In this document: positions 1,811 through 31,814 of the stretch, in pieces
How the letters are laid out: every line of letters starts with the position of its first letter
How positions within the stretch are numbered: position 1 is the first letter of the stretch
NCBI RefSeq assembly: GCF_003337735.1
Contig: NZ_QPJY01000002.1
Coordinates: forward strand, 683,617 to 747,616
Direction of reading: 5' to 3'
From: Thioalbus denitrificans
Lineage (GTDB): Bacteria > Pseudomonadota > Gammaproteobacteria > DSM-26407
DNA length: 64,000 bases
Made by a program: the position numbers and the translations under genes
The notes under the pieces: model-generated
What the model saw: only the letters and a program-made list of their open reading frames with translations
Database searches by the model: none
What the model was told of the DNA's origin: nothing

Positions 1811-2377
1811 CTATTCGCCGCTGCGTAGCAGTTTCGTGCCGATAACCTCCCAGCCATATTCTCGAAGCTCCCAGCGGAAATCGACACCCTGGTTCTGAAT
1901 GGCGAATATCAACCGGAGCTGGAGATCAGCCGAGCTATGGACCTGCTTCAGGATCTCCGGGGGAATGCGCTCCCTCACCTTCACCGTGTAGGGGCCCACC
2001 GGTTTGCCAGTATAGGGCTTTCCCCCCGGCTCCGGCAGCTTGCGCCAGCGAACCTGCAGCACCTCCGGCACCCTGCGGCCCTCCTCGGCCCATACATTGA
2101 TCAGGTGAAACGCCTTCGAGTGACCCGACATTCCGGCCTGCCCGTATACCTCACCGTGTCCCGGCACCGCCGCACTCACGTCCTCGATCTCCTCGTCGCC
2201 GGCATTCGTAAACGCGTAGGCGAAGTGCTCACCGACTGCCAGCCTATACACCGAACAGCCTCCCGCGAGGAGCAGACCCAATCCGATTGCGAAGCACCCC
2301 AGAAAGCCTCTCCGCGCAAGGCAGTATCGCTGCACACCCTTCTCACCGTCTTCACTGCACATTGACCGTGACTCCAT
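1811..2377 (-). CDS. Lipoprotein, probable immunity partner of the Rhs-DUF2235 toxin
   Basis: From ATG 2377, preceded by GGAAG five bases upstream, the protein has 188 residues. An N-terminal hydrophobic stretch ends in the lipobox LLAGGC, so it should be a lipidated exported protein. The mature part is about 155 residues with no named domain I recognise; motifs include PYTVKVRERIPPEIL and a tryptophan-rich end (FRWELREYGWEV). The gene overlaps the 3' end of the Rhs toxin gene by 26 bases, the position expected of an immunity gene. Because DUF2235/Tle1 toxins attack membrane phospholipids from the periplasm, a periplasm-facing lipoprotein inhibitor fits. The immunity role is inferred from position, localisation and toxin type only. 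Confidence 0.65.
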   Translation of the reverse strand: MESRSMCSEDGEKGVQRYCLARRGFLGCFAIGLGLLLAGGCSVYRLAVGEHFAYAFTNAGDEEIEDVSAAVPGHGEVYGQAGMSGHSKAFHLINVWAEEGRRVPEVLQVRWRKLPEPGGKPYTGKPVGPYTVKVRERIPPEILKQVHSSADLQLRLIFAIQNQGVDFRWELREYGWEVIGTKLLRSGE

Positions 2378-5300
2378 AGTTCTTCCGCAACCATTCTGCA
2401 TACCCGTCCACCCCCTTCATTTTTACATCAGCCACTTGACTGTAGCTGTAACCTGCATTTACTGGATTCACTCGATCTGTGAGATATCGAATCGTATCCC
2501 GGGTCGTCAGACCGAACAGTTCCATGGAATCCTGGTACACCTTCGGGTTGCCATTATGATTATCGGCATTGGGATAATAGATTCGCCGGTCCTCTGGGTA
2601 TACATATTCAAAGCCTGTATGCGGCTGGCTCAACACCCTCTTCCGTGAGCTTTCATCATGCAATATGGGATTGCTGATTGTTTTCAATTCTTCTGTCAAT
2701 TCCCTCATGAGAACACCTGCCTTCTCCGCTTGTTCCACCATCCAGTTCAAGGCCACGTCGGAAAGATCGCCACCGGAACAATTAACGATGTCTTTTCCAC
2801 AATAGCCACCGCCGATATCCGAGTGCGCCCCGATGAACCCCCGCTCGATAATAACCCCCGGTGAAACGCCACCTACCATCGGCGCACCGAAACCCGGTAG
2901 GGTCTGGTCGAACTCGATGGAATACAGCGCGAAGAGCTTACGGTGCTCGTTCAGCGCCACTGCCTGCGCGGTGTACATCACTTCCGGCCGAACCCTGGTA
3001 TCAATTTCCTCAATTGTCATTGGCACAGTGTCGAACAATCCCATGAACCGGATTGATATACAATATCCATGGTTCTTTATGTAATATCCTGCGTCTCGGC
3101 GTGACAGCACCTGATTGGCGAACATCCGGGCCGCCGCAGACCCACGTGAGAAACCGACAATATCTATCATCACCTGTGTTCCATTTTGCGACCCAGGTGC
3201 GCCCTCTCTTAAATACTCGTCCAAATTGTTCAGGTGTTCCTGTACCTGCCTCAACACACCCAGCCCCAATCCGCCACCGATATAGGGATCCGGGAATCGC
3301 CCAGTCCCAACACCTACTGAATAAAACGACACCTCGCCATCATCCAAATAATGCCGCCTGAACAGCTCCACATTCGTCAGCACCTTGTTCCGGTCGTTCC
3401 ACGTCCCGTCAAAGGCGAATAGCACCAACCCCTGCGGATCCACATACCGCAAGGGATTTCCTGACACATACCCATAGGGATTTATACCGCCGCGAAGACC
3501 TAATGGATCAGGGCTCAGGTAGCGCCCCTGGTCCGGGTCGTAGTAGCGGTGGTCGTTGTAGTGGAGGCCTGTCTCCAGGTCCTCGTACTGGCCCGGGAGC
3601 CGCAGGTTGAGTTGGTAAGATCCGTCCGGGATATCGATCTTCGCCCTGCCATAGGGGCTGTAGTCGGCACACCAGACCACGTTGCCATCGGCGTCGGTCG
3701 CCGCCTCGGGCGCACCCAGGTGGTCCAGGTGGAGGTAGGTAATTCTCTCGTTCCTTGCCGACAACCGATTGAAGACGGTACGCAGGGTTCCGTTCAAGTC
3801 AAAGCCCGTTGCCGGTGTATCACTGCTGAGACGTTTTCCCCAGGGCGTGTCCACTGTGGCCAGTGGGTGACCAGCGACGTAGAGATACTGGCGAAGGATC
3901 CGGCCCTCGCCGTCGAGTTCGGCCACTGGCCGGCGGTTCTCATAGATAAAGTGGGTAGTAATCGGCGCCCCGTCCTGCCAGACGGTCTTGCTGATCCGCT
4001 CCCCGCGGTGGTTGTAGCGGTAGGTGGCCCGGGTCCGGCCACCCTCACGCACGGCAGTTAGCCGACCCTCGCCATCCCAGGCGTAGCGCCTGCCCGCCTG
4101 CGCCACCAGGCGACCCGCGCGGTCGTGGGTGAATGGCATGTCGCTGCGCGCGTCGCCGGCCAGGACAATCGGTTGGTTGCTCACCGGGGCGTAGCGCAGC
4201 CGCTCCGTGGGGTTCTGGCCGTCCTCACTGCCCCCGCCCTCCTGGGCGAGCAACCGGTTGCCGTTGCCATCGTGGAAATAGCGCCAGAACGTGGCATCGG
4301 TGGCCCGCCCCTCGCTTCGGGCACCGATGAGTCGATCGTGGGGGTCGTAGGCGTAGTCCCGGCGGGTGTCGCCGGCACGTTTGCCCGGCAGCCGTTCCGT
4401 GTGGAGCAGGTTGCCGTTGAGGTCCCAGAGGTAACGGGTGTCCGCCAGGGCGTTGGCGGCCGGCGGCAGGCTGAGTGCACCGGGTGCATCATCCCCTGGC
4501 GCTGGACCGGTGAGGCCCGCCCACCGCCACTTCGGGAGAGAGCCCTCAACTCCAACTAGGCCCGGCCCATTGTGCACAGCAGGCCGCAGGACCGGCTCCC
4601 GCGGGCCGGGGTTCCGGTAGAGCAGGCGGGCAAGCCGGCCCTGGGCACTGCGCTCGTACCGGCCCTCGACACCGTTGCCGTAGCGCAGTGTGCGCATGCC
4701 CACAAGGTCGCGCTCCAGGCCGGAGACCAGCACCCGCGGCGCAGTGAAGGGTTCGGTTCGGCGTTCCAGGGCCACGATCTGCCCCAGGCCATCGGCCACG
4801 TACCGCAGCTCCGTGCCGTCGGGCAGCGTGCGGGCCCGGAGCGTGCCGCGCTCCGGGTCCCAACGGTAGCGGGTGGCATATTCCACCTCCCGGCCCGAAA
4901 CCAGGGTCAGAGCGACGGTCTTGCGGACCAGTCGCTGGCGGGCATCGTATTCGTAGTGCTCGCGCTGATTGGGATGGACTACGGCACAGAGCAACGTTCC
5001 GCACCAGCGATAAGCGGTGGTCTCCGTGGCCTCCGCCTCCCCCGCTGTGGCGACAGTGGCGGCCACCACCCGCCCGGCGGCATCGTAGCGCCAGGTCTCG
5101 CGATTGCCCTGCCCATCGGTACGCGCCACCAGGTTGTCCGCAGGATCGTAGCCCAGCACGGTCCGTCCGCTGTCGGGCGAGTCGACGGCGACGATGCGCC
5201 CGAAGTCATCGTGCTCATAGCTGGTCAGCGCACCATTGGGGGCCGTCACGGAGGCCAACCGTCCGGCCCTGTCGTAGCCATAGGCGACCAGCGCGGCAAA

Positions 5301-8081
5301 GGGGGTGTTGGCGGCCTTCACCACCCGGGCCAGCCGGCCCCGACGATCGTAGCTGTAGCGGGTCGCGCGCCCCAGGGGATCGATAAGCCCGACCAGCCGC
5401 CCAAGGTCATCGTGAGCCAGACGCCGCACGGCCCCGGAGGCGTCGGTGACACGGCTGAGACGCCCCTCCTGGTCGTAGCCATAGCGCTCTCTTTCCAGTA
5501 TCCGGCCGGAGAGGCGTGTCGCCTCGTGCAGTCGGCCGGCGTCATCGAATACGAAACGCCGCAGCACACCGCCCGCCTCGGCGATCCAGGTGTTGCGGCC
5601 CGCCGCGTCGTAACCCCAGCGAACCAAGCCCTGGTAACCCGTGCCCCACTGCTCCCCCAACTCCTGGAGCCGCCCGGCAGGGTCGTAAGCGTAGACCCGC
5701 TGCCGCGAACCGTCGTCGATGCTGCTGAGGCGGCCGCGGACGTCGTAGGTGAAGTGCCGCTCGGGCTGCCCCGCCACAACCACGCGCTCAGGACGCCCGT
5801 AGGCATCGAAGGCCCGCACTGTCACCACCACTCCGATGGGACTCTCCACTGCCACCAACCGGCCCGCGCTGTCATAGCTGAAGCCGATGCGATCCGGTGC
5901 CACCTCGCGCGGGCCGTCCACGGCCACCGGCAGCCCCTCCCGGTACTCGATGCGCAGGGTTCTGCTGATGGACACGAATTCCCTGACGGCCGGAGCAAAA
6001 CCGGTCTCCGTCATGGCCTCCGGCTGGCCGTCGTCGTTATAGCTGATCTCGGTACGGTACTCCGCCCCCGGCTTCACGCTGGGGCGAACAATGGCGCTGG
6101 GGTGGCGAGCGCCCCCTCTATACTCGAAGGCGGTCCAGTCCAGGACCTCACCGTGAAGCAGTGTGGCGACCCGGTTCAGGCGATCCTGCCCGTCGTAGGC
6201 GAACGCCTGCGCCCTGCCCCCTTTCCCGGTGATCTGCGTCAGCCGCAGCCGCTCGTCGTAGCTGTAGGCCACGTCCCCCCGGCTACAGACGGCGCAGCCC
6301 GGGCCGACGACGCGTGTCACCAAGGGAATACCCCCGCGCAGTGCCGTGTAGTAGCGGCTGGTGCGGTCAGTGGTGTCGGTGACCAGGGTCTGGCCTGACC
6401 GGTACTCCAGCTCCACCCGCCCCACGCCCTCCGCATGGGTGCTCAGCACCGCCCGGTCGTACCCGTCGTAGGCCCAGGTGGCGAAGCGCACGCCGCGCTC
6501 GTCGGTGAGGCCGGTCAGGTTGTGGGGATCGCTGCTGTCCTCGTAGTGGTAGGTGCGGACGGCGCCGTCGGGATAGGTGACCGACTCCAGGTTGCCGTGC
6601 CGATCGTAGCGGTAGAGGACCCGCCGCCCGCCCGGGTCGATGACGCCGGCGAGGCGACCCCCGTCGCCGTAGAGGAAGGTGAGGCGCCGACCCTGGGGAT
6701 CGGTGATGCCGGCCAAACGCCCCTCGGCGTCGTGGGCGAGGCGCACGCTGCGGCCGTCGGCCTGGCGGATGTCCGTCAGGCGGCCCTCACGATCGAACAG
6801 CAACCGGCGGCCGTCGTGCCAGACCCAGTCGTAGCCGTGGGACAGCGGTTCGATTGCGCCGTCGGTGGCGGCGGTGGCACGGTAGACCCGCCCGCCGGGT
6901 TCGCGCCGGAATACGAGAAGCCGTCCGTCGGACTGGCGCAGGCGGATGATCTCCCCATCGATCCGCTCCAGCGCCGCCATGTAGCTGTGGCGCCAGCCGT
7001 AACCGAGCGCGCCGTCCTGCTCCAGGCGGCTGTTGTAGTGGCGCACGAAGCGCAGGCCGAGCGGACCCGGCAGGGGCGAGAGGTCGGTTTCGGCCTGGTA
7101 CTTGTTGCCGGTGACCACGTCGATGGGGTTGCCGACGGCGCGCCCCTGGCCCGGCGCGGCCGTCGCGGCGGGCGCGTCGTTCTCGTCGCAGCTGTCGGGG
7201 GAGCCGAGGCCGGTGCCGCCGCCGGCATCCCCCTCGTCGGCGCTGTCGTCGCCATCACTGTCGCCGGTCCCTCCCCCCTCCGCACCACCGGGGCCGTCCG
7301 CCACCGGAACGAAGCCGCTGGCGCCATCCGAACCGCTGCCCGTGGGGCCGCTCTCCCAGGGTCGGTGGCCGGGCCGCGAGGCATCGGCGACAACAGTGGG
7401 ATCACTGCGGTAGGCGTCCCTGACTTCGGCCCGTTCGGCGACCAGGTCGTTCTCCCGCGCGGCGCTCTGCATGCGCACGGTGGCGGTGGCGAGGATGGGC
7501 AGGCGGCCGCGGGCAAGCAGTGTGCGGGCATAGGGATCGCGGTTGAACCAGCTGGCCAGGTTGGCGATGACCGGACCGGCGAAGGGGACCTTCAGCTCGT
7601 AGCCGTAGACCACCTCCAGCTTGAGCAGGTTGGCGTCCTGGATGTTGACGCCGCTGGCCGGGCCGACCCGGGTGTCGGCCACGTGCAGCCGTTCGAAGGG
7701 GATCTCCCGCACACCGTCCCGTTGGCTGTCCACGCCGAAGTCGTCGAAGGCCTCGCGGGTGGGGTTGAGGATGCGCAGTCGGGCACTCAGGGCAATGTCC
7801 GCGGCGGCGCGCGCCCGGGCCCTGAGCAGGCCGGCCAGGTTCCGGTCCGGCGAGTAGAGGGGCGCCAGGCTGCGGGCCAGCTCCAGCCGGATGGCGGCGG
7901 GATCGGCCTGGGTCGTCGTGCCGGCACGGGTGGCCATGAAGGTGGCGTGGTTGAGGGCGGATTTCGCCTCGTAGATGAACGCCCACTGCATGACGCTGAG
8001 CCCGAGCAGCGCCAGGACGGGCAGCACCACCACCGTCTCCGCGAGCACGGCGCCCCGCTGGCGCCGGAGTCCGGACAGCAT
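2352..8081 (-). CDS. TadE-like / Rhs repeat / DUF2235 phospholipase polymorphic toxin
   Basis: A 1909-residue protein with four visible parts. Residues 1-60 carry RRQRGAVLAETVVVLPVLAL and one membrane helix, typical of TadE-like minor pseudopilins. A linker to about 310 ends in a Gly/Asp/Ser-rich tract. A DUF6531-type entry (NPIDVVTGNKYQAETDLSPL, about 316-335) is followed by many YD repeats to about 1480 and the Rhs core end (YYDPDQGRYLSPDPLGL, then DPQGL). Residues 1549-1909 form a DUF2235 alpha/beta-hydrolase (Tle1-type) with FAFDGTWND, nucleophile elbow GFSRGS (Ser near 1644) and GAHSDIGGGY. Known Rhs shells encapsulate a C-terminal toxin; DUF2235 effectors hydrolyse phospholipids. No VgrG, PAAR or Tad machinery is in the window, so the export route is unknown. 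No clear Shine-Dalgarno precedes ATG 8081, but the start suits TadE proteins. Confidence 0.88.
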   Translation of the reverse strand: MLSGLRRQRGAVLAETVVVLPVLALLGLSVMQWAFIYEAKSALNHATFMATRAGTTTQADPAAIRLELARSLAPLYSPDRNLAGLLRARARAAADIALSARLRILNPTREAFDDFGVDSQRDGVREIPFERLHVADTRVGPASGVNIQDANLLKLEVVYGYELKVPFAGPVIANLASWFNRDPYARTLLARGRLPILATATVRMQSAARENDLVAERAEVRDAYRSDPTVVADASRPGHRPWESGPTGSGSDGASGFVPVADGPGGAEGGGTGDSDGDDSADEGDAGGGTGLGSPDSCDENDAPAATAAPGQGRAVGNPIDVVTGNKYQAETDLSPLPGPLGLRFVRHYNSRLEQDGALGYGWRHSYMAALERIDGEIIRLRQSDGRLLVFRREPGGRVYRATAATDGAIEPLSHGYDWVWHDGRRLLFDREGRLTDIRQADGRSVRLAHDAEGRLAGITDPQGRRLTFLYGDGGRLAGVIDPGGRRVLYRYDRHGNLESVTYPDGAVRTYHYEDSSDPHNLTGLTDERGVRFATWAYDGYDRAVLSTHAEGVGRVELEYRSGQTLVTDTTDRTSRYYTALRGGIPLVTRVVGPGCAVCSRGDVAYSYDERLRLTQITGKGGRAQAFAYDGQDRLNRVATLLHGEVLDWTAFEYRGGARHPSAIVRPSVKPGAEYRTEISYNDDGQPEAMTETGFAPAVREFVSISRTLRIEYREGLPVAVDGPREVAPDRIGFSYDSAGRLVAVESPIGVVVTVRAFDAYGRPERVVVAGQPERHFTYDVRGRLSSIDDGSRQRVYAYDPAGRLQELGEQWGTGYQGLVRWGYDAAGRNTWIAEAGGVLRRFVFDDAGRLHEATRLSGRILERERYGYDQEGRLSRVTDASGAVRRLAHDDLGRLVGLIDPLGRATRYSYDRRGRLARVVKAANTPFAALVAYGYDRAGRLASVTAPNGALTSYEHDDFGRIVAVDSPDSGRTVLGYDPADNLVARTDGQGNRETWRYDAAGRVVAATVATAGEAEATETTAYRWCGTLLCAVVHPNQREHYEYDARQRLVRKTVALTLVSGREVEYATRYRWDPERGTLRARTLPDGTELRYVADGLGQIVALERRTEPFTAPRVLVSGLERDLVGMRTLRYGNGVEGRYERSAQGRLARLLYRNPGPREPVLRPAVHNGPGLVGVEGSLPKWRWAGLTGPAPGDDAPGALSLPPAANALADTRYLWDLNGNLLHTERLPGKRAGDTRRDYAYDPHDRLIGARSEGRATDATFWRYFHDGNGNRLLAQEGGGSEDGQNPTERLRYAPVSNQPIVLAGDARSDMPFTHDRAGRLVAQAGRRYAWDGEGRLTAVREGGRTRATYRYNHRGERISKTVWQDGAPITTHFIYENRRPVAELDGEGRILRQYLYVAGHPLATVDTPWGKRLSSDTPATGFDLNGTLRTVFNRLSARNERITYLHLDHLGAPEAATDADGNVVWCADYSPYGRAKIDIPDGSYQLNLRLPGQYEDLETGLHYNDHRYYDPDQGRYLSPDPLGLRGGINPYGYVSGNPLRYVDPQGLVLFAFDGTWNDRNKVLTNVELFRRHYLDDGEVSFYSVGVGTGRFPDPYIGGGLGLGVLRQVQEHLNNLDEYLREGAPGSQNGTQVMIDIVGFSRGSAAARMFANQVLSRRDAGYYIKNHGYCISIRFMGLFDTVPMTIEEIDTRVRPEVMYTAQAVALNEHRKLFALYSIEFDQTLPGFGAPMVGGVSPGVIIERGFIGAHSDIGGGYCGKDIVNCSGGDLSDVALNWMVEQAEKAGVLMRELTEELKTISNPILHDESSRKRVLSQPHTGFEYVYPEDRRIYYPNADNHNGNPKVYQDSMELFGLTTRDTIRYLTDRVNPVNAGYSYSQVADVKMKGVDGYAEWLRKNYGVTVNVQ

Positions 8082-8757
8082 CGTGCCGGAGGTCAGGTGT
8101 GGCGTGGATTCAGCGGGCGTGCCGTTGCTGATCCCCCCGGACAGCGGCGCAGCCCTCCGCGGGAACGGTGGATCGGCCGGGACCGGCGGCAGGTTGGACG
8201 GGGCAGAAGATGCAGCGGTGATTTCATGACACGTTCCCTGTGTTCACGGTTTTCCAGGGACACACCCGGTCCCCGGGCGGACCGGAATCCGTTCCGGGCC
8301 GCTGGCTTGATGTGCCGATTAGTACCACACCGATTCACCTGTTCAAAATGGGTGATTGATGACGGGTTTGTAAGTCATGGGCGATCGTCAGCGATTTTGT
8401 TGAATAGACGGGATTGACAGGATTTCTGTCTGGTGGCTTCGGTTGAGGCAGTGGCAGGTCGCCTATTCGGCGCACCGGCCAGCGCCCCATCGCCCCGGGG
8501 CGGGCCTCCCACAGGCTTCGGTCGGGCCGCCGGGGTGTGCAGATGAATCTGCACCTACATGGAGGCGCGCCCTCGCGGCGATTTCTTTTCTCGGAATGGA
8601 TTGCACCGGGCCGAACGTTGAATGGGGTTCGTCCCTCGCCGCACCCTGCAATGACTTCTGCGGGGAAATGCGAATTCAGTGACCCAATCTCTTCCCATCT
8701 TTGCCCGAGACCCTACAATGCCCGCACGGTTTTCGAACATGGACGATTAGCCCTCGG
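8082..8757. repeat. Intergenic region with two dispersed repeats
   Basis: This 676-bp gap holds no convincing gene. A GGGATTGACAGGATTTCTGT word (about 8409-8428) belongs to the GACAGGATTTACAGGATT family seen at 10868, 17331, 24575, 28236, 31826 and 32175. At 8478-8582 lies a full copy of the GCCCCATCGCCCCGGGGCGG element. Promoters for the divergent Rhs and TPR genes must lie here but cannot be pinpointed. Confidence 0.7.
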
Positions 8758-9462
8758 ATGATGAATCTGAGCCGAAACCTTGGATACGGCGGGGCCGCGC
8801 TGCTGCTGGTGCTGGCGCTGTGGGCCCTGGCCAATGGAGTGGCCGATGTGGCGTGGCAGCCGGCGCGAACGGCCCTGGCGCGCTGGGAGGCCGCGGGCAG
8901 CGCGCCCGGCGCCGAAGCACTGGAACAGGCGCGGGCGGCGCTGGCGTTGGCGCGCACGCTGGATCCCCTGAACCCCCGCTATGTGCAGGAGTCGGCGCGG
9001 GTGCGGGAATGGGCTGCCATAGGCCTGCCGCCTTGGGAAACCGGGACCCGCGACCGCCTGGAGGATGCGCTGGCGGCCTATCGTGATGCCATCGCCCTGC
9101 GGCCCACCTGGCCCTATGCCTGGGCCGGGCTGGCGCGGGCGAAGCTGCGGCTGCTGCAACTGGACGCCGAGTTCGAGCGGGCGGTGGAGCGGGCCGGCGC
9201 GCTGGGCCCCTGGGAGCCGGAGGTGCTGCTGGCGCTGACCGAGATCGACCTGCTGGCGGAGCCGCTGCTGGCGGAGACGGCCAGCGCCCGGGTGGCGGCG
9301 GCCACGGAACGGGCCCTGCGCCAGCAGCCGCGGGAGGTCATCCGGCTCGCCGCGCGGCTCGGTCAGGCGGATCGGCTGCGTCCCCGGCTGGCGGGCGACA
9401 AGGCCCTGGAGAAGCAGCTGGAGCGCGAGGCACGACGGTCCGCGGCGGGGAACGCCCGATGA
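8758..9462 (+). CDS. Membrane-anchored TPR protein paired with the O-antigen ligase
   Basis: From ATG 8758 (ATG 8761 is equally possible) this is about 234 residues. One N-terminal membrane helix (GGAALLLVLALWALANGV) is followed by an alpha-helical, alanine-rich domain with tetratricopeptide-like spacing: LARTLDPLNPRY, AYRDAIALRPTWPYAWAGLA. The stop overlaps the O-antigen ligase start as ATGA, so the two are translationally coupled. Comparable short TPR proteins sit beside exopolysaccharide ligase or polymerase genes in other Gammaproteobacteria (VpsP-like). A scaffold or length-control role is possible; its exact function is unknown. Confidence 0.7.
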   Translation: MMNLSRNLGYGGAALLLVLALWALANGVADVAWQPARTALARWEAAGSAPGAEALEQARAALALARTLDPLNPRYVQESARVREWAAIGLPPWETGTRDRLEDALAAYRDAIALRPTWPYAWAGLARAKLRLLQLDAEFERAVERAGALGPWEPEVLLALTEIDLLAEPLLAETASARVAAATERALRQQPREVIRLAARLGQADRLRPRLAGDKALEKQLEREARRSAAGNAR

Positions 9463-10886
9463 GCACGCGGCCGGAGGCAACGACACCGCGGGGATTGTTC
9501 TTCGCCCTGCTGGCGCTGCTGGTGTGGCTGCCCATCCCGCTGGGCAGCAACCGCCCCTGGGCCTGGTCGCTGATGGAGACGGCCGTGTTCCTGCTCTGCG
9601 CCCTGTGGCTGGCGGGTGTGGCGCGTGGACGGTGGCAGCCGACGCCGGCCCTGCGCGAGGCCCGCTGGGTGCTGACGCTGCTCGGGGTGTGGCTCGGCTG
9701 GGGGCTGCTGCAGGCCATGCCGCTGCCGGCGCCGCTGGTGGAACTGCTCTCGCCGGCGGCTGCGGCGCTGCGCGCTGCGGCGGGGCTCCCCGCCGACGGC
9801 TGGCAGCCCCTGTCGCTGGACGTGCACGCCACCCTGGCCGCCTGGCTCAAGGGGCTGGCCTACGCGGGCGTGCTGGTGCTGGTGCTGGCGCTGGTCGAGA
9901 GCCGCCGGCGCCTGCGGACGCTCGCCACGACCCTTATCCTGGCGGCGGTATTCCAGGGGATGCTCGCCAGCATGCAGGTACTGAGCGGCTGGGAGTTCCT
10001 GTTTATCGAGAACAAGGGGGTTGCCCACGGCACTTTCGTGAACCGCAACCACCTGGCCGGGTTCCTGGAGATGAGCCTGGCGCTCGGCATCGGGCTGCTC
10101 ATCGCCTCCATGGCCGGTGGCGGCAGCCGGCGCAACTGGCGCCAGCGGCTGCGGGAGTGGGCGCGGCTGCTGCTGGGGCCCAAGGCGCGGCTGCGCATCT
10201 ACCTGGCGGTGATGGTGATCACCCTGGTGCTGACCCACTCGCGCATGGGCAATTCCGCCTTCTTCGCCAGCATGCTCGTCACCGGCCTCCTGGCGCTGCT
10301 GCTGTTCCGCAACTCGCCGCGGCCGGTGGTGGTGCTCATCGTGAGCCTGGTGGTCATCGACACCTTCATCGTCGGGGCCTGGTTCGGCATCGAGAAGGTT
10401 AAGCAGCGGCTGGAGGAGACCCGGCTCAGCTCCGAAACCCGCGACGAGGTGGATATTTATGCCTGGGACCTGTGGGGCGATTACCGCCTCACCGGCAGCG
10501 GCGCGGGCACCTTCGCCGCGGTCTTTCCCCGCTACCGGCAACCGGACGTGGGCACCGCCTTCTACGACCATGCCCATAACGACTACCTGGAGATTCTCAC
10601 CGAGTCGGGCATCGTCGGCGCCCTCCCGCTCGGTGGCGGCGTGCTCCTCTCCCTCGGCGCGGCGCTGCTCGCCATGCGCCGCCGGCACGACCCGCTGCTG
10701 CGGGGAATGGCCTTTTCCGCCGTCATGGGACTGATGGCCCTGCTGATTCACAGCAGCGTGGATTTCAATCTGCAGATTCCGGCCAACGCCGCGCTGTTCA
10801 TGGTGCTGATGGGGCTGCCATGGCTGGCGCTGACGCTGGGGCGGCGGCGTTCCGGAACGGGTAACAGACAGGATTTACAGGATTGA
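9459..10886 (+). CDS. O-antigen ligase / Wzy-type polymerase family protein
   Basis: This 475-residue polytopic inner-membrane protein has about ten to twelve hydrophobic segments and the O-antigen ligase (Wzy_C) signature in a large central loop: GTFVNRNHLAGFLEM near residue 195 and TFAAVFPRYRQP followed by HAHNDYLEILTESGIVG near residue 370. Members join or polymerise undecaprenyl-linked glycans at the periplasmic face. The pairing with a TPR protein and the phosphatase-like CpsB homologue 8 kb away point to exopolysaccharide or O-antigen assembly. Ligase and polymerase cannot be told apart from sequence alone. Confidence 0.85.
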   Translation: MSTRPEATTPRGLFFALLALLVWLPIPLGSNRPWAWSLMETAVFLLCALWLAGVARGRWQPTPALREARWVLTLLGVWLGWGLLQAMPLPAPLVELLSPAAAALRAAAGLPADGWQPLSLDVHATLAAWLKGLAYAGVLVLVLALVESRRRLRTLATTLILAAVFQGMLASMQVLSGWEFLFIENKGVAHGTFVNRNHLAGFLEMSLALGIGLLIASMAGGGSRRNWRQRLREWARLLLGPKARLRIYLAVMVITLVLTHSRMGNSAFFASMLVTGLLALLLFRNSPRPVVVLIVSLVVIDTFIVGAWFGIEKVKQRLEETRLSSETRDEVDIYAWDLWGDYRLTGSGAGTFAAVFPRYRQPDVGTAFYDHAHNDYLEILTESGIVGALPLGGGVLLSLGAALLAMRRRHDPLLRGMAFSAVMGLMALLIHSSVDFNLQIPANAALFMVLMGLPWLALTLGRRRSGTGNRQDLQD

Positions 10887-12608: not shown

Positions 12609-13634
12609 CTACCCTGGAACGGGGGTCAACTGATACACCCAGAAACCACCCTGCTGGTATACCAGTTCAAAATGCTCCAGGTGGATGGGGCCCGCCTTGC
12701 TGAAGGGCAGCAATTTCGCAATCAGCGTCCGTGTCGATTTCTCGTCGGTGAGGAAATAGACCCGGACCACCTCCGCGCCCCGGTTTTCCACCAGGTAATT
12801 GCTGTACCCCTCGCTCTGCAGCCAGTCCTTCACCCGCTGTATGAGTCCGTGCATGTCTCCCGTATTGGGAAAATCCTTGTATCCCACGCTCAGGCGCCCG
12901 GGGTACAGCATGCCCAGCTTGTAGATGTCCGATACGTGCAGAACCAGTGTCACGGTATCGCTGCCGGTGAGTTGCAACAGGCGTTCGGCCGCCTCGTCCT
13001 CCCCTGCCAGCAGCGCTTCGGTGAATGACGAGAATCCGGCGTCCTCCGTCCCCGCCCCGGGAACGCGCCAGAAGGACCTCTCCAGCGCCGCGATATCCCC
13101 GCTGCGCGGCTGCCAATGAGACGGGATCAGCAGCGGCTCGAGCAGGGTTTCACCAAACCGGTACTGCTGTCTGGTGAATGCCTCCAGACGCTGCAAGACA
13201 TCCCACCAGCCCAGCACGCCGGCGCTATCCGTCTCATGCGCTGCAAGCGTGTCGGCCACCGCCTTCAATTCGGCCGGGGCGGTCGACGTGTAGAGCAGGG
13301 GGGCGGCCACGCGGTTGTCCCAGTGCAGCAGCACGGGACGGCTGTCGGGGCTGTCGGTCACATAGGCCCTTGCCAGGGGCTCATCGATTCCCTCGGTCAT
13401 GAGCCGGTAGCGGCTGACCGGCAGCGTCTCGAAGCCCTCCGGCTTCAGCTCCGGGAAATCCCCGGCCTCGCCCCGGGTGTCGAGCACGTAGCGATAAAGG
13501 GGCGGGGCGGGCTGGACAAGCGTCCAGCCCAGCCACGCCAACAGGAACAGTCCTCCCGTCACCAGCAGCACGCCGGTGAGCGGGAGGACCAGGGGGTTTG
13601 CCCTGCGCGGCAGGGCCGGGTTCGCGTATGGCAC
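12609..13634 (-). CDS. haoB: HaoB, hydroxylamine oxidation protein
   Basis: GTG 13634 overlaps the last base of the haoA stop (TAGTG), so the pair is coupled. The 341-residue product has one N-terminal membrane helix (residues 16-40, PLTGVLLVTGGLFLLAWLGW) and a large periplasmic domain without cysteines for heme. Length, topology and position directly after haoA match HaoB of ammonia oxidisers and methanotrophs, whose function is poorly known but thought to support HAO assembly or membrane interaction. Motifs such as YRYVLDTRG, VLLHWDN and YLVENRGAEVVRVYFLTDEK are visible. I rely mainly on synteny for the name. Confidence 0.8.
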   Translation of the reverse strand: MPYANPALPRRANPLVLPLTGVLLVTGGLFLLAWLGWTLVQPAPPLYRYVLDTRGEAGDFPELKPEGFETLPVSRYRLMTEGIDEPLARAYVTDSPDSRPVLLHWDNRVAAPLLYTSTAPAELKAVADTLAAHETDSAGVLGWWDVLQRLEAFTRQQYRFGETLLEPLLIPSHWQPRSGDIAALERSFWRVPGAGTEDAGFSSFTEALLAGEDEAAERLLQLTGSDTVTLVLHVSDIYKLGMLYPGRLSVGYKDFPNTGDMHGLIQRVKDWLQSEGYSNYLVENRGAEVVRVYFLTDEKSTRTLIAKLLPFSKAGPIHLEHFELVYQQGGFWVYQLTPVPG

Positions 13635-15352
13635 TAGCTTTCAAGCTCCCTGTTGCGGCGCCGCCAGCCCCACAGCGCCAGGCCGCCGAACAGCAGCATG
13701 CCGCCGCCGATGCCGCCCACCGAGGCCTGCTTTCCGGTGGAATCCAGGTTGAGCAGGGTCTGCCTGGCGCCGGCCTCGAGCTTGTCCACGCGCTCCTGCA
13801 GCGCGGCCATTTCACGCAGCTTGGTGTTCTCGTCCATGATGCGGGCATAGTCGCCGATGAGCGGCGACCAGCCTTCCGTGTAGGTGTATCCGCCCGGACT
13901 GCCGTGGGACACGCCCTTGTAGAGCTTGATGAGGTCGTGCTCCCACATCTGGGCGTGGTCGCGCTCGATGGCGGTGGGGTTGTTGCCCTTGGCCCAGAAC
14001 AGCTGGAAGAATCCGCCGGGGGCGTCCTTCATGGGCTCCGGCGGCGTGGGCCGATTGGTCTTCTGCCCCACCAGCAGGCCGTCCTCGTAGAGCTTGTCCA
14101 GCACCGCCTTCGCTTCCTGCTCCTTGGACAGGCCCTGCTTGATGCTGCCGTCGATGATGTCGAAGTAGGCCTTGGCGAACTTCTCCGAGTGGCAGGTGGT
14201 ACAGGTCTTGACCCACGCGGCCTTGCGCTTCTGGAACCACTCGTGGTCCAGGTTGTCGGCTATTGCGGGCGTTGGATTGAAGGCCCAGCGCACCTTGCGC
14301 ACCACGTTGTGGCCGAACTTGCCTTCGTACTCCATGTGGCAGTACGCGCAGGTGGGCCCGGTCTGGCCGCCCTTGGCGATGGCGTCCTTCAGCGGCACGT
14401 CCCAGTTCCAGGAGTCGCCATGAGCCTTGAGCACCGTGCCGTGCTTCGACAGCAGGAACTGCTCGTATTCGTTGTGATCCACGCCGTTGTGGCAGGTGGC
14501 GCAGGCCTCCGGCTTGCGCGCCTCCGCCGCGGAGAACTGGTGGCGGGTGTGGCAGGTGTCGCACTTCGGCGCATTGATGTGGCACATGGTGCAGCCGGAG
14601 GCGATCTCCCGTTCCTCCATCGCCGCCCAGGTGGCCAGCTCCACGTTGGCCTGGTATCCCAGGGCGTGGGAGGGCCGCCCCGCGGGCCACTGGTCATGGG
14701 GCCAGTTCATGGTGTCGCGCTCGGACTCACGCTCGGCGAACTGCTGCAGGTGGCAGGTTCCGCATATCTTCGCATCGGGCATGCGCAGGTCCTTGTCGTG
14801 CTTGCCCTCCTTCGCGCCGATGCCGACGTGGCAGTCGATACAGCCCACCTGGGTGAGCTGCTCGTGCTGCCCCAGCTTGCCCAGGGAGCGCAAATTCTCC
14901 TCCGCCTTCTCCAGCAGCTCCTTTTTGTAGAAACGCGGATCTGATGCGGGCAGGTTGCGGATCGCGGTCAGGTTCGAGTGGACGCTCTTGCGCCAGGCCG
15001 CCACGGCCCCCGGGGTTTCGTCCGAGTCCTCGTGGCACGTGATGCAACCGGCTCCATCGGTGGTCTTGGTCACCGAGGTCGGCGGCTGGTAGAAAAGATT
15101 GGGATTGAAGTACTGGTCGATGGCCAGCGGCTGCCACTTGTCCGCGTACTTGCCCTTGCCGGCGCCCTGCTTCGGATCCTCGTATCTCTCCACCAGCTTG
15201 TCATACAGCTCCTTCGGAGCCGCATGCTCCGACACGCCCAGCGCTTCGAATGTCTCGGCGGGAATGTCGGCCACGGCGGGAACCGAGAACAGCGCCACGG
15301 ACAGTGCAATGCACAGTGTGGACAGGATCCTGAACACCCTACTGCTTCCCAT
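13634..15352 (-). CDS. haoA: Octaheme hydroxylamine oxidoreductase HaoA
   Basis: ATG 15352 has AGGAGG seven bases upstream and opens a signal peptide (ILSTLCIALSVALF...AVA). The 572-residue product has eight CXXCH motifs: CITCH (about 103), CIDCH, CGTCH, CTMCH, CDTCH, CATCH, CAYCH and CTTCH (about 384). The GGYTYTEGW segment near residue 489 holds the likely tyrosine that crosslinks the P460 heme, which favours hydroxylamine oxidation over the reductive HAO-like branch. A C-terminal membrane helix (GGGMLLFGGLALWGW) followed by arginines anchors the enzyme. Followed by haoB; no c554, cM552 or amo genes are nearby, so detoxification of hydroxylamine or nitric oxide production is more likely than energy-yielding ammonia oxidation. 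Confidence 0.93.
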   Translation of the reverse strand: MGSSRVFRILSTLCIALSVALFSVPAVADIPAETFEALGVSEHAAPKELYDKLVERYEDPKQGAGKGKYADKWQPLAIDQYFNPNLFYQPPTSVTKTTDGAGCITCHEDSDETPGAVAAWRKSVHSNLTAIRNLPASDPRFYKKELLEKAEENLRSLGKLGQHEQLTQVGCIDCHVGIGAKEGKHDKDLRMPDAKICGTCHLQQFAERESERDTMNWPHDQWPAGRPSHALGYQANVELATWAAMEEREIASGCTMCHINAPKCDTCHTRHQFSAAEARKPEACATCHNGVDHNEYEQFLLSKHGTVLKAHGDSWNWDVPLKDAIAKGGQTGPTCAYCHMEYEGKFGHNVVRKVRWAFNPTPAIADNLDHEWFQKRKAAWVKTCTTCHSEKFAKAYFDIIDGSIKQGLSKEQEAKAVLDKLYEDGLLVGQKTNRPTPPEPMKDAPGGFFQLFWAKGNNPTAIERDHAQMWEHDLIKLYKGVSHGSPGGYTYTEGWSPLIGDYARIMDENTKLREMAALQERVDKLEAGARQTLLNLDSTGKQASVGGIGGGMLLFGGLALWGWRRRNRELES

Positions 15353-15366
15353 GATGCCCCCTCCTC

Positions 15367-15404
15367 GGCGAGTGACTCGCCTCATCTGGCATGCGCAATT
15401 GCGC
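15367..15404. promoter_or_regulatory. Two adjacent palindromes in the haoA leader
   Basis: GGCGAGTGACTCGCC (15367-15381) is a perfect 7-bp inverted repeat around one base, and GCGCAATTGCGC (15393-15404) is a perfect 12-bp palindrome. Both lie just upstream of the haoA ribosome binding site, inside the 282-bp gap shared with the divergent MocR-type regulator. They may be operator sites; the binding protein is unknown. Confidence 0.4.
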
Positions 15405-15634
15405 GATGATGCAGTGCCATTGGGGACCCCGTGTCCGGTCGGGTAAAGAACCAGTTCCAACCGGTGGGCTGGTACCAGGGCATTTTTTGCGGTATTCGGA
15501 ATGGAATCTCCAACTAATTGATATTTATTGCCTCTGGCCCTATTGCCCTACTCCAGACTGGTATTACTCATGAGCGCGTTTCCATTCCTATAATGGGACC
15601 AAGGCGGCTCGGCAAGGCTGGAGGATTTTCCACC

Positions 15635-30510: not shown

Positions 30511-30646
30511 CCGCAGATTAACGTTATTTGCGTTGATTTTCCGGTGCGCCCCATCCGGACGTCCACTTGACTCGTACCTCGTAGAGTCAGCCCGGGGGCC
30601 CCGGAATGGTTAATGCAGAATCTGCGAAAATAAGCGTAATCTACGG
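30511..30646. repeat. Gene-free CCGCAGATT inverted pair upstream of pilU
   Basis: CCGCAGATTAACGTTATTTG from 30511 and the opposed AATCTGCG...AAGCGTAATCTACGG ending at 30646 form an imperfect inverted pair. It occupies the whole Nudix-pilU gap, so the pilU promoter must lie in or between its arms. Confidence 0.75.
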
Positions 30647-30677
30647 TTTATATAGTCTTTTTCACAGGTTAACCGGA

Positions 30678-31814
30678 ATGATAGACCTCAAGCGACTGCT
30701 GGCGCTGATGATGGAGCGCAACGCCTCGGACATCTTCCTGAGCGTGGGCGCGCCCATCCATATCAAGATCGAGGGGGTGATGAGCCCCATTACCGACGCG
30801 CCCCTGCCGCCCGGCTCCGTGGAGGCGCTGGCGCAATCCATCATGAACCCGCGCCAGGCGGAGGCGTTCCACGAGCGCCCGGAGATGAACCTGGCGCTGG
30901 CCGGCGAGCACGGGGGACGCTTCCGGGTCAACATCTACCGCCAGCGGGGCGAGGTCTCCATGGTGGTGCGCTACCTCAAGGAGGTCATCCCGAGCCTGGA
31001 GGAGCTGAACCTGCCGCCCATCCTCAAGCAGCTGGTGATGGATCCCCGCGGGCTGGTGCTGGTGGTGGGCGCCACCGGCTCGGGCAAGTCCACCACCCTC
31101 GCCTCCATGATCAACTACCGCAACCAGCAGACGACCGGCCACATCGTCACCATCGAGGATCCCATCGAGTATGTCCACAGCTACCAGCGCTCGGTGGTGG
31201 AGCAGCGCGAGGTGGGCTTCGACACCCTCTCCTACGCCGATGCCCTGAAGAACGCCATGCGCGAGGCGCCGGACGTCATCCTCATCGGCGAGGTGCGCGA
31301 TCGGACCAACATGGAGCACGCCGTGGCCTACGCCGAGACCGGCCACCTCTGCCTCACCACCCTGCACGCCAGCAACGCCCACCAGGCCCTGGAGCGCATC
31401 GTCACCTTCTTCCCCGAGTCCATGCACCGGCAGCTGTTCATGGACCTGTCGCTGAACCTGCGCGCCATCGTCTCCCAGCGCCTCATCACCGGGGTGGACG
31501 GGAAGCGGGTGCCGGCGATGGAGATTCTCATCAGTTCCCCGCGCATTGCCGACCTGATCCAGAAGGGCGAGATCGAGCTGGTGCGCTCGGCCCTGGAGAA
31601 GAGCCCGGTGGAGGGCACCGTCACCTTCGACCGCTACCTGTTCCAGCTCTACATGGCCGGCAAGATCAGCCGCGAGGAGGCTCTGCGCAATGCCGAGTCG
31701 GCCAACAACCTCGCCCTGCTCATCCGCCTCCAGGGCGGGCGCAAGGCGATGCAGGACGAAGAGGGCATGAGCCTGGTGCAGGAGGAGAAGCCCGGGAACG
31801 TCATCGAGGGCTGA
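30678..31814 (+). CDS. pilU: PilT/PilU-type twitching motility ATPase
   Basis: From ATG 30678 the protein has 378 residues, the PilU length. It shows MIDLKRLLALMMERNASDIFL, Walker A GATGSGKST, the Asp box IVTIEDPIEYVH, Walker B VILIGEVRDRTNM and the His box LCLTTLHASNAHQA. The FLSVGAPIHIKIEG start is nearer PilU than PilT. It powers type IV pilus retraction as a cytoplasmic hexamer; PilU normally works with PilT, which is not adjacent here. Likely a monocistronic unit, since repeats fill both flanks. Confidence 0.85.
   Translation: MIDLKRLLALMMERNASDIFLSVGAPIHIKIEGVMSPITDAPLPPGSVEALAQSIMNPRQAEAFHERPEMNLALAGEHGGRFRVNIYRQRGEVSMVVRYLKEVIPSLEELNLPPILKQLVMDPRGLVLVVGATGSGKSTTLASMINYRNQQTTGHIVTIEDPIEYVHSYQRSVVEQREVGFDTLSYADALKNAMREAPDVILIGEVRDRTNMEHAVAYAETGHLCLTTLHASNAHQALERIVTFFPESMHRQLFMDLSLNLRAIVSQRLITGVDGKRVPAMEILISSPRIADLIQKGEIELVRSALEKSPVEGTVTFDRYLFQLYMAGKISREEALRNAESANNLALLIRLQGGRKAMQDEEGMSLVQEEKPGNVIEG

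Follow-up and report, generated by a model that had tools for sequence, protein, structure and literature searches.

Polymorphic toxins are known to be delivered by type V, type VI or type VII secretion systems (T5SS, T6SS, T7SS), by Tc or PVC devices, by outer-membrane exchange or by plain export. The survey of polymorphic toxin classes by Zhang et al. (2012; PMC3482391) contains no trafficking class based on a pilus or pilin, and the words "pilus" and "pilin" are absent from its text. Among Rhs proteins, the N-terminus defines the mode of secretion (PMC8636562). Herrou et al. (2025) showed that the minor-pilin tips of the Kil Tad pili in Myxococcus are interchangeable and required for contact killing, and proposed variable TadEFG tips elsewhere, naming no Rhs protein (PMC12075869). 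Here we examine a gene in a stretch of 64,000 nucleotides of contig NZ_QPJY01000002.1 from Thioalbus denitrificans (the whole stretch being referred to as the window), which encodes a TadE-like pseudopilin head followed by a linker, an Rhs shell and a Tle1-like phospholipase. An earlier note on this DNA, made from its letters, did not know such a toxin to be described. We agree, as full-text searches of the openly licensed literature found no paper linking TadE to Rhs or polymorphic toxins, and the architecture, which joins two known kinds of protein, is therefore apparently undescribed. We think it rather probable that the product is a polymorphic toxin mounted on the tip of a Tad pilus through its minor pseudopilin head.

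The N-terminus has a textbook prepilin site, with the leader MLSGLRRQRG followed by AVLAE and a Glu at +5. Its match to the TadE family (PF07811) spans all 43 model positions, scoring 25.7 bits with the full protein and 32.0 bits in the genome search against a cut-off of 22.9. This confirms the earlier note, which had placed a TadE-like head with a membrane helix on an Rhs-DUF2235 protein at exactly these coordinates and had suggested the profile search, here positive over residues 10-52. The similarity extends past the first 60 residues to a conserved domain of ~210 residues, for which AlphaFold2 gave a model with a mean predicted local distance difference test score (pLDDT) of 92.2, consisting of one N-terminal helix (residues 8-56) and an alpha/beta body. 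In an alignment of 51 heads, G10 and E15 are conserved in at least 90%, and eleven residues further on are invariant. A start downstream of the TadE-like segment, which the note had named as fatal to its idea, is ruled out because the prepilin site is conserved: the near-identical gene copy from another genome of the genus aligns across it, and so do relatives with 35-57% identity. Judged by its sequence, the resemblance of the N-terminus to TadE is not due to chance, and profile score, prepilin site and a predicted pilin-like fold place the head among TadE proteins. Viral contigs scanned with the head yielded no relative, and a viral origin was rejected.

When 56 genomes were searched with residues 1-231 of the window protein, seven further head matches were returned. 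Four are stand-alone proteins of ~230-270 residues at the ends of Tad operons, one is the near-identical head in the second genome of the genus, and two are toxin heads (a 1805-residue TadE-Rhs protein and a 739-residue TadE-HINT-toxin protein), each lying immediately downstream of Tad genes. A wider family survey scanned 84,980 genomes and found 181 relatives, the best 80 of which were kept; the payload and neighborhood counts given below cover these 80, and their heads all come from Gamma- and Betaproteobacteria. Tad linkage was scored with profiles built for the core proteins RcpC, RcpA, TadA, TadB and TadC, at least two core genes being required in the stretch examined. Rows of the DUF192 profile were left out because that profile was contaminated by open reading frames (ORFs) with the head.

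By this measure, Tad core genes lie beside 17 of the 20 stand-alone heads, 8 of the 9 HINT fusions and 6 of the 15 Rhs fusions, always on the same strand, the two kinds of fusion together giving 14 of the 24 toxin-bearing heads. Where the stretch is longer than 12 kb, every stand-alone head (13/13) has Tad core genes alongside. Head-only relatives fill the TadE slot after tadA-tadB-tadC-TPR, and fusions sit in the same region or inside the Tad operon; four Steroidobacteraceae (e.g. Steroidobacter, Peristeroidobacter) carry the fusion and its candidate immunity gene between rcpA and tadA. DUF192-like and TPR genes, which are outside the classical Tad set, recur in the Tad operons of the relatives. 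The Tad-specific RcpC is encoded in 20 of 22 toxin-carrying genomes vs. 51 of 342 genomes of the class, and of the two RcpC-negative carriers, one has a fragmented genome of 87% completeness and the other shows TadA, TadB and TadC at its locus. The class RcpC list includes 29 of the 34 head-bearing genomes of the class sample, the two samples overlapping only partly. Together with the pairing of the orphan window protein described next, these counts bear out the co-occurrence with tad genes that the earlier note had proposed to look for. The fusion is the only PF07811 match in genome G037, Povalibacter uvarum, two Marinobacterium isolates and others, and the toxin-bearing protein may therefore be the machine's own TadE there. 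The Povalibacter genome and those of loci L025 and L060 likewise carry head-type toxins away from the Tad operon.

The window genome has two tad loci, on contigs C6 and C20. The C20 locus (L101) encodes a Flp-like pilin, TadG-like and TadE/F-like proteins, RcpC, RcpA, FHA-TadA, TadB, TadC, a DUF192-type protein, an FHA protein and a TPR protein; the small DUF192-type and FHA proteins lie between TadC and TPR (12710-14999). Downstream of TPR, where the relatives have the head, C20 shows a leader like that of a ribosomal RNA (rRNA) operon and then the contig end, with no head, and no further head-type TadE was found elsewhere in the assembly besides the window protein. The closest counterparts of the C20 proteins TadA, TadB and TadC belong to L026, L025, L022, L023 and L027 (for TadC, L026, L025, L022 and L023 at 48-53% identity), and the heads nearest to the window head are those of L026, L025 and L023. 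Because C20 lacks a head-type TadE and its TadA, TadB and TadC are nearest to those of the genomes with the nearest heads, the orphan TadE-Rhs protein most likely serves the C20 machine in trans, as far as such sequence pairing can indicate. Pairing with the classical C6 locus is less likely because its TadB and TadC share no more than 28% identity with their counterparts in head-bearing operons (TadC no more than 27% with any of the TadC proteins just named) and it has its own TadE of 160 residues; a TadV-like prepilin peptidase is also encoded on C6.

The orphan position would also suit a decaying relic that lost its operon. Over 493 codons compared between the window gene and the copy in the sister genome, 8 differ synonymously and 9 in other ways, the 9 including four neighboring codons at the contig end; the two copies are too similar for selection on the gene to be measured. 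Against decay, all 1909 codons are open (ATG at 8081, stop at 2352), all motifs are intact, a candidate immunity ORF overlaps the gene, and the assembly holds no other head-type TadE for the C20 machine, making a relic extremely improbable.

The payloads joined to this head vary. Sorted by how long the ORF continues past the head and by what it encodes there, the best 80 of the 181 relatives comprise 20 that are (nearly) stand-alone, 29 with short tails, mostly Gly- or acid-rich, 7 OmpA-like fusions, 15 Rhs fusions and 9 fusions to PT-HINT and a toxin. Five C-terminal ends, including that of the window protein, are Tle1-like. Tox-REase-5 ends were matched by profile in L024 and L031, and L028 and L030 have the same sequence type; PT-HINT fusions have several different ends, and there are also an HNH-like end and a number of types with no family assignment. 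HINT and Rhs payloads share supported clades in the head tree, e.g. L035 (HINT) and L041 (Rhs), both from one genome, and a minimum of 7 changes between toxin and non-toxin states is required. From the sequences, a head that stays constant while the ends are exchanged is the mark of a polymorphic toxin.

Further members show the range of this family. The OmpA-like (peptidoglycan-binding) fusions (L046, L054, L055, L061, L062, L083 and L099; OmpA confirmed by Pfam in L046 and L099) come from Oxalobacteraceae and relatives, and are a non-toxin use of the same platform. L060 and L066 are Rhs fusions ending in an unassigned domain with the motif HTxADFYAHxNW(A/V)D, only weakly like VWA7_N and possibly a metal-dependent toxin. 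Four genomes have two TadE-toxins each: L035 and L041 (G384), L060 and L073 (G388), L070 and L074 (G390), and L039 with a second ORF (G386). In some cases one of the two lies at the Tad operon and the other elsewhere, reminiscent of the alternative tips of Myxococcus. In L038 (Marinobacterium marinum, 9950-10792) the end of the head ORF is apparently frame-shifted relative to the HINT fusions of the sister species L034 and L037, and looks like a broken copy or a sequencing error. Among the matches listed for a phylum sample, nearly all TadE ORFs encode 135-510 residues, and a single one outside the head family exceeds 600 residues (1405 residues, adjoining a normal TadE). On these matches, the idea that giant TadE ORFs are widespread in the phylum was rejected, and because only that one exceeds 600 residues, giant TadE fusions look specific to this head family.

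The Rhs and toxin parts of the window protein are well supported by profiles (Table 1). DUF6531 scores 78.9 bits, the RHS repeat matches in 11 stretches totaling 221 bits along with the RHS core (all Pfam), and NCBIfam reports YD repeats and Rhs_assc_core. The best solved matches are Rhs shells of T6SS effectors and teneurin-like proteins, with the Tle1-type structure 6sjl for the C-terminal domain; solved T6SS Rhs effector structures match residues 1415-1553. By its RHS/YD repeats, core motif and the variable C-termini on a constant N-terminus, the protein is predicted to be an Rhs polymorphic toxin. T6SS_Tle1-like_cat (PF09994, formerly DUF2235) scores 72.4 bits against a cut-off of 27, and the predicted catalytic set of the lipase is intact, consisting of Ser1645 (GFSRG), Asp1684 (GLFDTV) and His1753 (GAHSDIGGG), all three invariant in an alignment of the four closest fused lipases. 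This score and these predicted residues place the domain in the Tle1-like family. A structure model of the toxin domain was poor (pLDDT 50.5 from five sequences) and was not used.

Table 1. Positions in the window of the TadE-Rhs-phospholipase gene, its parts and the overlapping gene
Feature	Positions	Strand	Basis or remark
Whole gene: TadE pseudopilin, linker, Rhs shell, Tle1-like phospholipase; 1909 residues	2352..8081	-	
Prepilin leader MLSGLRRQRG, predicted cut after Gly10, Glu at +5 (E15)	8052..8081	-	
TadE (PF07811) match, residues 10-52, hydrophobic alpha-1 helix	7926..8054	-	Pfam
Conserved pseudopilin domain (head), residues 1-210	7452..8081	-	Alignment and AlphaFold2
Gly/acidic low-complexity linker, residues 211-316	7134..7451	-	Sequence; relatives with similar linkers
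DUF6531, start of Rhs shell, GNPIDVVTGNKY at 317 (residues 317-391)	6909..7133	-	Pfam
RHS/YD repeats, residues 392-1446	3744..6908	-	Pfam, NCBIfam
RHS core domain and DPLGL...DPQGL aspartyl-protease-like motif, residues 1447-1552	3426..3743	-	
Tle1-like (DUF2235) phospholipase domain, residues 1553-1909	2355..3425	-	
Candidate immunity protein, 196 residues or shorter, lipobox LLAGGC	1811..2401	-	Overlaps toxin gene end by 50 bases

The product of the overlapping gene matches no Pfam or NCBIfam family. Across the head family, the gene after a Tle1-type or "DFYAHxNW" toxin is lipoprotein-like and has a signal or lipobox, and Tox-REase-5 toxins are succeeded by large proteins that lack a signal. 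This pattern, read from the sequences, fits immunity proteins that reside in the same compartment in which the matching toxin would be active.

The variable domains exposed on Tad tips may serve in recognition (PMC12075869), and other heads carry non-toxin OmpA-like or low-complexity tails, which would be in keeping with the Rhs part being an adhesin or receptor-binding module at the pilus tip, as in teneurins, with killing secondary or absent. However, the C-terminal ends are recognized toxin families whose catalytic residues are preserved and which have candidate immunity genes next to them, and the HINT class has no Rhs shell. We consider an adhesin role highly improbable.

Our proposal for a toxin borne on the pilus tip builds on what was computed, namely the architecture, the intact motifs, the family-wide Tad pairing, the exchange of payloads, the empty C20 slot with its phylogenetic pairing and the lipoprotein genes beside lipase-type toxins. 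From these we infer export, tip assembly, cleavage, delivery, killing and immunity as follows. The toxin would be exported to the inner membrane as other pilins are, and cut after Gly10 by a prepilin peptidase, the TadV-like enzyme encoded on contig C6. Its alpha-1 helix would then insert the protein at the empty TadE position of the C20 machine, with the Rhs shell enclosing the phospholipase at the pilus tip on the flexible linker. Upon touching a neighboring bacterium, the shell would place its payload in that cell's envelope. The Rhs core would cleave off the C-terminal domain, and this phospholipase would hydrolyze phospholipid of the membrane, acting from the periplasm. Protection of the producer and its kin would come from the lipoprotein encoded next to the toxin. 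The earlier note had suggested delivery or display through a Tad/type IV-like pilus, or retention at the inner membrane. Display is supported by the profile match and the tad pairing, and delivery would follow from the steps above; retention as a pool of pre-pilin is a stage that every pilin normally passes through, and is compatible with the pilus reading.

Several observations weigh against this proposal. A fold search of the head against the PDB and viral models gave no significant match and no solved pilin. The window gene is unlinked to tad genes and lies beside exopolysaccharide genes, and C20 ends at an assembly break soon after its TPR gene, so that a further head could conceivably lie beyond the rRNA operon, although the rest of the assembly showed none. 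No relatives of the candidate immunity protein were found among the neighbors of the other lipase fusions. A folded Rhs shell is wider than a Tad filament, which leaves its passage through the secretin unexplained, the filament being ~4 nm wide in the periplasm (PMC13170226). Finally, the window genome has a T6SS sheath gene, and therefore another export route exists.

Typical cargo of the T6SS includes Tle1-like lipases and Rhs toxins, and with the sheath gene present the window toxin could be read as such. The earlier note's statement that most Rhs toxins begin with PAAR, VgrG-linking or signal domains holds for T6SS Rhs proteins and does not hold as a general rule (PMC8636562). Pfam detects no PAAR, VgrG or Hcp domain in the window protein, which places it outside the T6SS Rhs effectors. 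The sheath gene (PF05943) was not found in 11 of the 22 carriers, including Peristeroidobacter, Steroidobacter agaridevorans and the Marinobacterium isolates, and the head tracks Tad genes. T6SS export is thus very unlikely.

A different use of the Tad machine itself is also conceivable, as a pseudopilus like that of the type II secretion system (T2SS), in which the head docks the toxin at the platform and the Rhs part is cut off and freed through the secretin, not borne on the tip. Tad and T2SS belong to the same family of filaments, substrates of the T2SS are loaded by its minor pseudopilins (a point taken up for Kil in PMC12075869), and the long flexible linker and Rhs motifs would permit release of the toxin. 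However, the payload is covalently attached to the head, and the head is a whole conserved pseudopilin and the only detectable TadE in several genomes, so it probably also primes the filament. We regard this mode of release as unlikely, and continue to favor a tip-mounted toxin.

The neighborhood of the window gene is of exopolysaccharide type, with CpsB/CapC at 921-1646, and TPR and O-antigen-ligase-like Wzy_C proteins (8701-10886) adjoin the toxin gene. A short ORF at 197-650, which we take to resemble a DUF559-type endonuclease, is flanked by repeat-like sequence coding for PLPRGEGE / PSPSGGGLGRG. The window also encodes a multi-heme cytochrome (13634-15460, minus strand; PF13447, 497 bits) and a T2SSE-type ATPase (30606-31814; PF00437, 142.6 bits), likely the motor of a type IV pilus.

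If the proposal is true, toxins fused to a Tad tip pseudopilin add a delivery route, and one gene with one immunity gene provides a concrete mechanism for contact killing by Tad-like pili such as Kil. We give roughly even weight to the broader idea that in many Gamma- and Betaproteobacteria the Tad pilus serves as a dedicated contact weapon, its TadE tip being a polymorphic toxin of Rhs or HINT type in which payload and immunity can be exchanged. Such toxins would form a new trafficking class that works through a retractable pilus. Culturable and non-pathogenic carriers (Povalibacter uvarum, Steroidobacter, Peristeroidobacter, Marinobacterium iners and Marinobacterium mangrovicola) make direct testing possible.

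Compared with described systems, the window protein shares the prepilin site and alpha-1 helix of a canonical TadE, as well as the operon position in its relatives, but bears a 1700-residue extension. With the T6SS Rhs effectors Tse5, Rhs1, Tse15 and Tre23 it has in common the Rhs shell, core motif and C-terminal toxin; unlike them, it has a pseudopilin head in place of the prePAAR/PAAR and Eag-binding segments, and its family pairs with Tad operons. Its lipase is of the same catalytic family as the Tle1 effectors (PF09994; PDB 6sjl), with the S-D-H set and GFSRG, here carried inside a TadE-Rhs protein. The polymorphic toxin classes of Zhang et al. (PMC3482391) have the same plan, with a constant N-terminal delivery domain, an Rhs or HINT middle, a variable end and adjacent immunity. 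The tips of the Kil Tad-like pilus of Myxococcus xanthus (KilL/KilM/KilN; PMC8460266, PMC12075869) are likewise Tad minor pilins with variable domains and are linked to contact-dependent killing, which is a prediction for the present family. One genome can hold several alternative Kil tips, comparable to the pairs of TadE-toxins in G384, G386, G388 and G390. Kil differs in that its killing depends on a complex like the type III secretion system and that KilN domains have no known function, whereas the variable part here is a recognizable toxin with a neighboring immunity candidate.

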